Part shown: positions 2,500 through 4,889 of the stretch, piece after piece
How positions within the stretch are numbered: the stretch's first letter is position 1
How the letters are laid out: each line of letters starts with the position of its first letter
Assembly: GCA_017635565.1 (NCBI GenBank)
Contig: JAGBLE010000002.1
Span: forward strand, 1-37,058
Source: Bacilli bacterium
Lineage (GTDB): Bacteria > Bacillota_I > Bacilli_A > RFN20 > CAG-826
DNA: 37,058 bases
Reading direction: 5' to 3'
Position numbers and translations under genes: made by a program
The notes under the pieces: generated by a model
Databases searched by the model: none
The model's input: the letters and a program-made list of their open reading frames with translations, nothing else
What the model was told of the DNA's origin: nothing

Positions 2500-2536
2500 A
2501 AATGCTTAGGCGAGAAACCTAAGCATTTATTTTTAG
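2500..2536. terminator. Bidirectional rho-independent terminator between deoB and the ABC permease gene
   Basis: An 11-base-pair perfect stem, AAATGCTTAGG (2500-2510) with CCTAAGCATTT (2518-2528), has a 7-base loop. On the + strand it is followed by a T-rich tract; read on the - strand it is followed by TTTTAATT. It lies between convergent genes and contains the TAG stop of the permease gene (2519-2521), so it should stop transcription from both sides. Confidence 0.9.
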
Positions 2537-3292
2537 TATTTTCTTTAACACATCAAATATAAAAGTCACTAGTAGCATTATTAATATCGCAATTAAAGAA
2601 TAAGCGAAAGTTGGAACCATTCCGTTAGAAGAATTAAGATAGGCACTTTGAATTGCTCTTCCCAGCCCTTCGCTAGAGCTACCAGAAATAACTTCCGCCA
2701 TAATTTCAATTTTGAAAGATAACGTGAAGCTTGATATTAACCCTAATGAAATTGTTTTAAATGCTAAAGGAAACTTAATCTTTAAGTTACTTTTAAAAAG
2801 ATTAGCCCCATCAACTCTTGTGGACATTAAGACAAATTCATCAATAGATGAATATCCACCGATAGTGGCTTCATAAACAATTGGAAAAACAATGATAACG
2901 ACAATATATATTGGAGCGTTTCTAAGTCCTGCAAGAACCAAAAATAAGAAAGTTAAAGCAGCAGTGGGAATTGATTTTAAAGCAACCATCGTTGGTTTAA
3001 AAACATATTTGAGTTTTATAAAATTGCCAACGATAACTCCTAATAAAATAGCAGTGGAACTTCCAATAGAAAATCCAATCAACATCCTTTCTAATGAACC
3101 CAAAATACATCTATAAGTAAATGGATCACCAAGATAAATAAACATTTGTTCGAATGTTTCTATTGGAGAGGGAAAAACAGATTGCTTTTGGCCTGCGATA
3201 AAATAAATAGAAACCCACAAAAGAAAAAAGAAAATTATTCCAATAAAGGATAAAAAATACTTATTAGAGATAACTTTCTTCGTTAATTTCAT
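2519..3292 (-). CDS. ABC transporter permease, NitT/TauT (SsuC-like) type
   Basis: Inner-membrane permease of 257 residues. It has an N-terminal hydrophobic helix (about 14-34), further helices across the protein, and the BPD_transp_1 cytoplasmic loop that contacts the ATPase (around STRVDGANLFKSNLKIKFPLAFKTI, matching the EAA-loop pattern ending in a hydrophobic Pro-containing segment). Family knowledge: these permeases work with a periplasmic-type lipoprotein and a separate ATPase to import small anions or vitamin precursors. Its ATG overlaps the TAA of the binding-protein gene by one base (TAATG), so the two are translationally coupled. No ATPase gene lies next to it or anywhere in this window, so the energising subunit must be encoded elsewhere or be shared. 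Substrate cannot be told from the sequence. Confidence 0.85.
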   Translation of the reverse strand: MKLTKKVISNKYFLSFIGIIFFFLLWVSIYFIAGQKQSVFPSPIETFEQMFIYLGDPFTYRCILGSLERMLIGFSIGSSTAILLGVIVGNFIKLKYVFKPTMVALKSIPTAALTFLFLVLAGLRNAPIYIVVIIVFPIVYEATIGGYSSIDEFVLMSTRVDGANLFKSNLKIKFPLAFKTISLGLISSFTLSFKIEIMAEVISGSSSEGLGRAIQSAYLNSSNGMVPTFAYSLIAILIMLLVTFIFDVLKKILKINA

Positions 3293-4236
3293 TAAAGTTT
3301 AATCACTCCATCATTTTCAATGATGTTTTTTGTGGCAGCAGCATCACTAACCGCATATGAATCAAGTTTTAAATCACCATATAAATATTTAAAAACTTTG
3401 CCTGGTAAATCATTTTCTTGGAAATATAAAACATGGTCTCCTTCATTCATAACTCCATCCTCATCTTTACCTGTTGATAAAATATACATATTTCCAAATG
3501 TGATAGTGGCAGCGATTTTATAATTAGCAGCGTTATTAAGCTCTTTAATTCCTCCATGAGTAGGAGCAACAATAATGTCATAATTATTAGTCGAGAATTG
3601 AGCCATAGGGGCTGCTGCTAAAAAATTCTCGTTTTCGGCATAGTTATAAAAGGCAACTGCTGGGGCACCTGATGGACAAACAATTTTTAAAGATGAATAA
3701 TCCACTTCGGTGAGTTCAGAAGGAACGTAAAAAAGTTCATCATCTATACTTCGTATAGAAGGATTAATCAAGCTTACGAAGCTTTTAATTTCATCTTTGA
3801 TTTCATTAGCGTATTCAAACCCTAAAGAAAAACCATTATTGTTCTTGGTTACATTAAATGCCGGACCAGCGGCAACTCCAAATCTTGATGCCTGCGCTTC
3901 ATTTGATCCAGCCTTTTCAATTCCTGCCTTGATTAAAGTTGGATCATTAATTCCTGACTCAACATCGTTTTTAATTGAATTCAAAAAAGCATCAACTTTT
4001 GATTTATCGGAATTGTTATTCACAAATATTGAAGCTTGAATAATTCTTTTATCTGTTTTTTCTAAAAAATCAGTTTGGACATTTTTGTAAACTGAAAATC
4101 CCTTTGATTGAGTAGCAAACACAACTGGTTGCGCTGTAAAAATATAATCAAATTGAATTTCGCTTGGCTGATTATTTTGACTGCATCCGATTACGCCAAG
4201 TAAGATAGTCGGAATAAATAAAAATGCTTTTTTCAT
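3292..4236 (-). CDS. ABC transporter substrate-binding lipoprotein, apparently circularly permuted
   Basis: Secreted lipoprotein of 314 residues: signal peptide 1-17 and a lipobox ending GVIG-C18. The order of parts is unusual. Residues 28-170 (DYIFTAQPVVF, then IIQASIFVNN, an all-helical stretch, and NPSIRSIDDELFY) resemble the second half of NitT/TauT-type binding proteins. Residues 183-314 (LKIVCPSGAPAVAFYNY, IIVAPTHGGI, YKIAATITFGNMYILS, NDLPGKVFKYLYG) resemble the first half, which in the family normally follows the signal peptide. The canonical C-terminus therefore seems joined to the canonical N-terminus by the segment at about 171-182, and the protein ends inside lobe 2. GAGGT about 10 bases before the ATG is a good ribosome site. 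It is coupled to the permease downstream and divergent from a Crp/Fnr regulator. Transporter role is likely; permutation is my inference; ligand unknown. Confidence 0.8.
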   Translation of the reverse strand: MKKAFLFIPTILLGVIGCSQNNQPSEIQFDYIFTAQPVVFATQSKGFSVYKNVQTDFLEKTDKRIIQASIFVNNNSDKSKVDAFLNSIKNDVESGINDPTLIKAGIEKAGSNEAQASRFGVAAGPAFNVTKNNNGFSLGFEYANEIKDEIKSFVSLINPSIRSIDDELFYVPSELTEVDYSSLKIVCPSGAPAVAFYNYAENENFLAAAPMAQFSTNNYDIIVAPTHGGIKELNNAANYKIAATITFGNMYILSTGKDEDGVMNEGDHVLYFQENDLPGKVFKYLYGDLKLDSYAVSDAAATKNIIENDGVIKL

Positions 4237-4301: not shown

Positions 4302-4889
4302 ATGAAAGATATTGTTAAATTAATAACCAAAAATAGTGGAATCAAATATGATGAAGTAACCGCTAAGAAAAATCAGACTCTCTTTTTTGAAGGAGATGAA
4401 TGTAAAGAAATTGGATTAATTATTTCTGGAAAAGTTAGTATCATCTCATATTTTTCTGACGGACAAGAAGTTATCTACAACACATTATCAAGAGGAGAGA
4501 TGTTTGGGAATAACCTTATTTTTTCAAGTCATCCATTTTATAGAGGGGATGTCGTTGCTATTGAAGATTCCATAATTGCGTACATAACAAAGGAAGAACT
4601 TTTGAAAGCAATGAGTGAAAATGTAGGTTTATTAGAACAATATTTAAAATCACAAGCTGACTTCAGTAAACAATTGAATTTGAAAATAAAATTATTAACA
4701 ATAAATAACGCTAAAGATCGAATCAGATATTTCTTAGCAGTAAACAAGAACGAATATAAATATCGATCAATAACTAAACTAGCAAAAGAGCTATATTTAA
4801 CAAGAGAAACAGTTAGTCGAACAATCTACAAAATGGAAAAAGACAAAGAGATTAAAATTGAGAACAAAACAATAAAATTGAAGTCGTGA
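4302..4889 (+). CDS. Crp/Fnr-family transcription regulator
   Basis: Cytoplasmic DNA-binding regulator of 195 residues. The N-terminal cupin-like sensor domain (about 20-110) shows FFEGDECKEIGLIISGKVSI and GEMFGNNLIFSS; the C-terminal winged helix (about 148-195) has the helix-turn-helix SITKLAKELYLTRETVSRTIYKM. In cAMP-binding members the cassette reads GExxGE...R(S/T); here it is GEMFGNN, so cAMP binding is doubtful. There is one Cys near the start (C34) rather than the Cys cluster of FNR, so an iron-sulphur sensor is unlikely. No Shine-Dalgarno precedes the ATG; instead a CRP-like palindrome abuts it, which suggests a very short leader and autoregulation. Divergent placement makes the ABC permease/binding-protein operon the likely target. 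The gene ends in TGA. Confidence 0.9.
   Translation: MKDIVKLITKNSGIKYDEVTAKKNQTLFFEGDECKEIGLIISGKVSIISYFSDGQEVIYNTLSRGEMFGNNLIFSSHPFYRGDVVAIEDSIIAYITKEELLKAMSENVGLLEQYLKSQADFSKQLNLKIKLLTINNAKDRIRYFLAVNKNEYKYRSITKLAKELYLTRETVSRTIYKMEKDKEIKIENKTIKLKS

Follow-up and report, generated by a model that had tools for sequence, protein, structure and literature searches.

Does the substrate-binding lipoprotein gene at positions 3292-4236 of a 37,058-nucleotide stretch of Bacilli DNA (contig JAGBLE010000002.1; the whole stretch is hereafter called the window) encode a chain whose two halves have changed places, and if so, how did this order arise and how often? Natural circular permutations have mostly been recognised between distant proteins, with the route and the age of the rearrangement unknown. 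The reading which we consider very likely as a whole is that of a NitT/TauT/SsuA-like lipoprotein permuted in place, with at least three origins, a duplication route and exchange of the permuted allele of the window clade (P1). The window comes from a metagenome-assembled genome of 1.07 Mb and 73% completeness, whose named relatives are uncultured Bacilli of the rumen, horse and other gut. All the data analyzed are sequences, mostly from metagenome assemblies, and no ligand, expression or transport data are available.

Organization of the gene

The minus strand was found to contain one open frame from 4236 to 3292, encoding 314 amino acids (protein P0001), and the plus-strand reading of the same positions is full of stops. 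The initial annotation had placed the gene at 3292-4236, which held, with the strand being minus. The sequence blocks it had quoted are also all present in the order given, namely the signal peptide and lipobox (C18), DYIFTAQPVVF, IIQASIFVNN, SIDDELFY, LKIVCPSGAPAVAFYNY (from residue 183), IIVAPTHGG, GNMYILS and LPGKVFKYL. The gene assignment rests on this open frame, on orthologues in both orders and on an AlphaFold2 model.

The signal peptide and lipobox (residues 1-18 with lipid-anchor Cys18; 4183-4236, minus strand) read MKKAFLFIPTILLGVIGC, a signal expected of NitT/TauT/SsuA-like binding proteins. The upstream block, with the signal peptide in it, is collinear at the DNA level with the normal-order gene of genome G002, and this part was kept from the normal-order ancestor. 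Block B (approximately residues 25-171; 3724-4164, minus strand) now comes first and represents the original C-terminal half, comprising the end of lobe 2, the second crossover QASIFVN and the closing helices of lobe 1. Its lobe B HMM match lies ahead of the lobe A match, and its DNA is collinear between loci L001 (1580-1976) and L009 (1919-2306). The gap between the two HMM matches forms a linker (approximately residues 172-181; 3694-3723, minus strand) that bridges the former C-terminal end (..DDELFY) and the former N-terminal end of the mature chain (SLKIVCPSGAP), a position past the end of the normal-order proteins, which terminate at ..EEVFY. Block A (approximately residues 182-314; 3295-3693, minus strand), now last, is the original N-terminal half containing the start of lobe 1, the first crossover and the first part of lobe 2; it is defined by the lobe A HMM match and by collinear DNA (L001 2047-2430 with L009 1504-1905). 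The new C-terminus, ..IIENDGVIKL, sits in lobe 2.

An ABC importer permease gene (BPD_transp_1, PF00528, E 7e-13; 2519-3292, minus strand) lies directly downstream with a 1-nt overlap, and this permease follows the binding protein in both the normal and the permuted loci compared. Upstream, a divergent Crp/Fnr-type regulator (cNMP_binding, PF00027, E 1.7e-19; 4302-4889, plus strand) adjoins the binding-protein gene in all members of the genus.

Sequence evidence for circular permutation

The comparison consisted of rotating the sequence and the predicted secondary-structure strings, together with a contrast of sequential structure searches. When P0001 was aligned to the normal-order orthologue of genome G016, a BLOSUM score of 251 was obtained without rotation and 686 with rotation at residues 179-181; shuffles gave -19 +/- 14 with a maximum of 28, and the block order is therefore not a product of chance. 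The rotated protein aligns end to end with this orthologue (140 of 279 aligned residues identical, 50%), and the best rotation of the secondary-structure strings is nearly equal to that of the sequences. All 26 positions with at least 90% conservation in the normal-order relatives are retained in P0001. A search of 59 relatives gave only two patterns, either one full-length match (permuted) or two matches (normal); with P0001 as query, the normal-order relatives match residues 181-312 first and residues 25-171 second. What the sequences show is the altered order, its derived state, the retained flanks, the three breakpoints and the conserved positions; that the P0001 chain is a natural circular permutant of a NitT/TauT-like lipoprotein is very likely, with its fold inferred from prediction.

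Structure models

AlphaFold2 was run without templates on P0001 (pLDDT 92.9, pTM 0.87) and on the normal-order orthologue of G016 (pLDDT 92.5, pTM 0.87). The alignment used for prediction had half-length rows from normal relatives, and the lobe-lobe contacts rest on five full rows. A rotation of the normal model reproduces the order of strands and helices in the P0001 model: E164-166, E169-173, H174-180 and so on of the normal model correspond to E26-28, E31-35, H36-41 and so on of P0001, while the normal E26-29 through E158-160 correspond to E185-187 through E311-313. The old termini lie in lobe 1 and the new termini between normal residues 160 and 164, within lobe 2.

In sequential Foldseek searches of the PDB, the normal model returned 281 matches with E<=0.001, with 3hn0 as the best (E 1.5e-13) followed by TauA, SsuA, PqqT and Thi5, whereas the permuted model gave none at this threshold. 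VIA-align likewise matched the normal model, whose similarity to NitT/TauT/SsuA-type binding proteins extends along its entire length, to 3hn0 (Z 26.1 over 255 residues), SsuA 2x26 (18.8) and TauA 6ssy (17.2), whereas only weak matches with Z of at most 6.1 were found for the permuted model. A sequence search of solved structures with P0001 and both lobe profiles found no relative, and the fold of P0001 itself is a model prediction.

A circular permutation of a NitT/TauT-type protein with new ends within lobe 2 had been proposed in the initial annotation, and both parts of this proposal held. The first is supported by the orthologues in both orders, the rotated alignment, the contrast between structure searches and the exchange of DNA blocks described below. 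A predicted fold in the ordinary order would have refuted it, but the confident model has the order of the normal model rotated.

Distribution of the two orders

A lobe-specific comparison found six permuted and 13 normal genes among the 19 genomes of the window genus, with one copy in each, so that homologues of either order, which the initial annotation had suggested seeking, occur even within one genus. Of 59 named homologues taken from GTDB genomes, the normal order is found in 55 and the permuted one in four, which come from RUG, UBA and RUI assemblies. Outside three permuted clades, no order other than the normal one was observed among the entries listed and classified in an order-wide search (279 genomes), and only the normal order, apart from the window genome itself, among those of a class-wide sample (296 genomes). 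As this coverage is partial, more permuted cases may exist. The permuted order is thus a derived state, the relatives outside the three clades being normal.

Two objections can be raised at this point. The first is that the permuted order is ordinary for the subfamily, given its presence in six genomes of the genus. However, the opposite arrangement is found in 13 members of the genus and in every classified outgroup beyond the three clades, and it also agrees with the TauA and SsuA crystal structures; this explanation is all but excluded, and a subfamily standard was rejected as the normal order dominates among the relatives. The second is an assembly chimera or a misread frame, for which it can be said that the sources are metagenome assemblies. 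Against it, six genomes of the genus, obtained in several projects (RUG, UBA and RUI), agree in this order, with an open frame and the flanks in place, and different breakpoints occur in two further clades. An artefact can hardly be maintained and was rejected because of the replicate genomes with the same order.

Independent permutation events

Three permuted clades were distinguished, a recurrence which the initial annotation had not seen. The first, P1, is the window clade with its cut between normal residues 160 and 164. The second, P2, comes from a different family within the order (f5, genus g35) and comprises ten permuted genomes, nine having whole genes and one (G064) a gene split over two contigs, as against four normal genes in f5. 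Its cut follows ..VPDLAFKAVYG and precedes.IDxYVSxVSDTAP, at approximately normal residues 134-138 and hence earlier than that of P1. The third, P3, is represented by genome G224 (family f1, genus g50), whose gene is found at 1504-2511 on the minus strand of locus L132. Here the cut is earlier still (approximately normal residues 103-114), after ITFGNFYLASVN and before EPYVVLFQQ. The sister gene in G223 (L149, 1123-2106, plus strand) has the normal order and 69-75% identity to that of G224.

In the binding-protein tree as well as in that of the permease, P1, P2 and P3 are far apart and separated by normal-order relatives, and their breakpoints each occupy a different loop of lobe 2. As part of the whole explanation, we regard it as very likely that at least three independent permutations affected the orthologous gene, each with its own cut point in lobe 2.

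Some further observations were made on these clades. Ser-rich linkers follow the lipobox at the P2 loci (L029, L090-L098 and L103/L114), and the binding-protein tree does not resolve permuted from normal genes there (AU for one clade 0.302). The G224/G223 pair is the best available for a base-level reconstruction of the rearrangement.

In-place rearrangement and its possible routes

At the DNA level in G224 (in-place REARRANGEMENT), the 5' side was found to be kept through the signal peptide (1171-1305, against 1050-1185 in G223), as was the 3' side, starting with the stop codon and continuing into the permease (2252 in G224, 2102 in G223). In G223 the inner blocks lie at 1513-2069 and 1240-1478; their counterparts in G224 lie at 1375-1931 and 2005-2246, so that their order is swapped. 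The new C-terminus, ..SVNQ, terminates at the apparent old stop codon (..CCAATAAGAATTACAT against ..ACAAATAATTACAT). The same pattern was observed when the DNA of the P1 genes was compared with G002 and G016, where the stretch from regulator to signal peptide is collinear, blocks B and A are exchanged and the permease is again collinear. As the signal peptide, lipobox and permease junction are retained, the rearrangements took place in place.

The simplest route would begin with an in-frame tandem duplication of the gene body, after which the A part of the first copy and the B part of the last copy would be deleted, giving the order signal peptide, B, A. In the present gene only the two inner blocks have exchanged places, while the promoter and signal-peptide side and the permease side stayed put; a short linker joins the old termini of lobe 1, and the lipid anchor now holds lobe 2 instead of lobe 1. 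The initial annotation had suggested such a tandem duplication, in which the outer halves are lost and the signal peptide is kept. This route fits the junctions, and it is an inference from sequence alone. The order-wide and class-wide searches, which were partial in coverage, revealed no duplicated intermediate (A-B-A-B or B-A-B), and duplication is therefore not distinguished from block transposition or from fission and fusion. The remnant tandem copy that the initial annotation had proposed to look for in relatives was likewise not seen in these partial searches, the only tandem copies being full-length paralogues in genus g21. There, two full-length binding-protein genes stand in tandem in G075 and G055 (L106 and L107; family f5), which indicates that the gene at this locus does duplicate in place.

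The alternative, which would give an identical product, is that the first part of the gene was cut and pasted to its 3' end, or that the gene was split and fused again. In its favour, there is no duplicated intermediate, the mapping of DNA blocks is equally compatible with it, and G224 lacks the loop TDGEAVMTNDS, with the moved block joined near the old stop codon. On the other hand, no split genes were found among the relatives, three fission-fusions that each preserve the signal peptide, the frame and the permease junction would be less simple, and the tandem paralogues in g21 show that duplication occurs at the locus. We consider this alternative the less likely one, and tandem duplication with partial deletion is the route that we prefer.

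Gene histories within the window genus

The five intact P1 genes have the same new start, new stop and linker positions. The sixth, in genome G015, shares the new start and linker but its 3' part is broken. The binding-protein tree does not reject a single permuted clade (AU 0.247), nor a clade of the four closest normal rows (AU 0.55), and in the lobe B tree the permuted genes of the genus form one clade (76/78). In contrast, a single permuted clade is rejected by the permease (AU 0.009), by the neighbouring Crp gene (0.0005) and by parC (3.8e-6). The case of G015 gives the sharpest conflict: its Crp and parC group with those of the normal-order G002 (99/92 and 100/98), whereas its binding protein groups with that of the window (100/99) and pairing with G002 is rejected (p 0.0027). 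These contrasts were examined only after the trees had been seen. We infer that the permuted P1 allele most likely had a single origin, followed by transfers of the permuted and normal alleles from one species to another at the same locus.

Two other histories were considered. The six permuted genes of the genus might represent several independent permutations at the same point, and the scatter of the permuted species on the parC tree (AU 3.8e-6) speaks for this. It is nevertheless unlikely, given the identical new start, stop and linker positions in the five intact genes, the failure of the binding-protein tree to reject one clade and the single clade in the lobe B tree (76/78). As the main alternative, the ancestral locus of the genus may have held both orders, tandem or internally duplicated, with differential loss and no exchange between species. 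In its favour, the binding-protein tree rejects neither the permuted clade (AU 0.247) nor the clade of the four closest normal rows (0.55), but none of the 19 genomes retains both orders and many parallel losses would be needed, so that we consider it rather unlikely. Exchange of an allele that arose once is the history we favour.

Regarding the broken gene of G015 (L004, approximately 1390-1520), its frame ends after 269 amino acids, and a match to the final 39 residues lies in a different frame that contains a stop. The gene may be decaying, or the break may be an error of the metagenome assembly.

Comparison with known systems

In the open-licence literature searched, we found no report of a permuted NitT/TauT-type binding protein, and TpMglB-2 (Tp0684) of Treponema pallidum was the only natural permuted binding protein. 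This is a circularly permuted type I sugar-binding lipoprotein for which 'Type Ic / Cluster Bc' has been proposed, and its authors propose a link between permutation and membrane anchoring (PMC4990184). The suggestion of the initial annotation that a permuted, lipid-anchored binding protein may not have been described therefore held only in part, as TpMglB-2 is known but has a different fold type. TpMglB-2 and P0001 are alike in being natural, lipid-anchored, permuted ABC substrate-binding proteins with relatives in gut Gram-positives. They differ in that TpMglB-2 has the type I (cluster B) fold with the strands of the N-lobe reordered and the C-lobe order unaffected, and the homology of its moved part is not demonstrable by sequence (13% identity; PMC4990184). 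For P0001 and its permuted relatives, by contrast, the predicted fold is type II and NitT/TauT-like, the cut points fall within lobe 2 and the events number three; rotation of P0001 yields 50% identity, and its genus also contains orthologues in the normal order. Membership of P0001 in Type Ic / Cluster Bc was considered and fails, as the normal orthologue matches type II and the cuts are in lobe 2.

The NitT/TauT/SsuA/Thi5-like proteins (3hn0, SsuA 2x26, TauA 6ssy, CmpA, NrtA and PqqT) have a fold like that predicted for the normal-order orthologue and share with P0001 a lipoprotein signal and an adjacent BPD_transp_1 permease. P0001 differs from them in its permuted chain, the lack of a Pfam match and the lack of an adjacent ATPase. 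Permutation by duplication, one of the two standard models, is known from saposin/swaposin and DNA methyltransferases (PMC3320104), where the product is of the same kind; in the present case, by contrast, the two orders are found in close species at a single syntenic locus, on three occasions.

With both orders at the same locus in one genus, one pair only approximately 30% diverged, the flanks intact and three cut points, it becomes possible to test directly the route, the extent to which lobe 2 tolerates being cut, and the anchoring proposal for TpMglB-2. The case also serves as a warning that such proteins escape profile libraries and sequential structure searches, as P0001 matched no Pfam family, nor any PDB entry at E<=0.001. 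A bolder reading, which is rather unlikely but possible, is that the recurrent permutation is selected: the shift of the anchor from lobe 1 to lobe 2 may alter docking or tethering on the importer, with both topological alleles exchanged between species at one locus.

Probable function and neighbouring genes

The assignment to the type II fold rests on the match of the normal orthologue to SsuA and TauA and on the identity of P0001 to this orthologue after rotation. The adjacent permease is of the BPD_transp_1 type, as expected of the family, and was also found to be similar to the NtrB and SsuC models below their cut-off. The canonical chain order (start of lobe 1, lobe 2, end of lobe 1) is absent in P0001 and present in the normal-order orthologues. 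Pfam gave no family for P0001 and none relevant for the normal-order orthologues, and NCBIfam gave only chance-level matches for P0001.

The open frames of the binding-protein neighbourhoods analyzed contained no ABC ATPase motif, and the substrate can therefore not be inferred from the operon. ATPases are present elsewhere in the genome, none of them above the NtrCD cut-off. P0001 is most likely the lipid-anchored flytrap of an ABC importer, with binding and transport inferred in the absence of ligand data. As there is a single permease gene, the importer would probably contain a permease homodimer, and we infer that its ATPase is likely supplied from elsewhere.

In the window genus, the locus sits between the Crp/Fnr-type regulator and a phosphopentomutase gene, with a XerD-like recombinase gene beyond. 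Phosphopentomutase and recombinase genes likewise adjoin the binding-protein gene of a distant homologue (L082).
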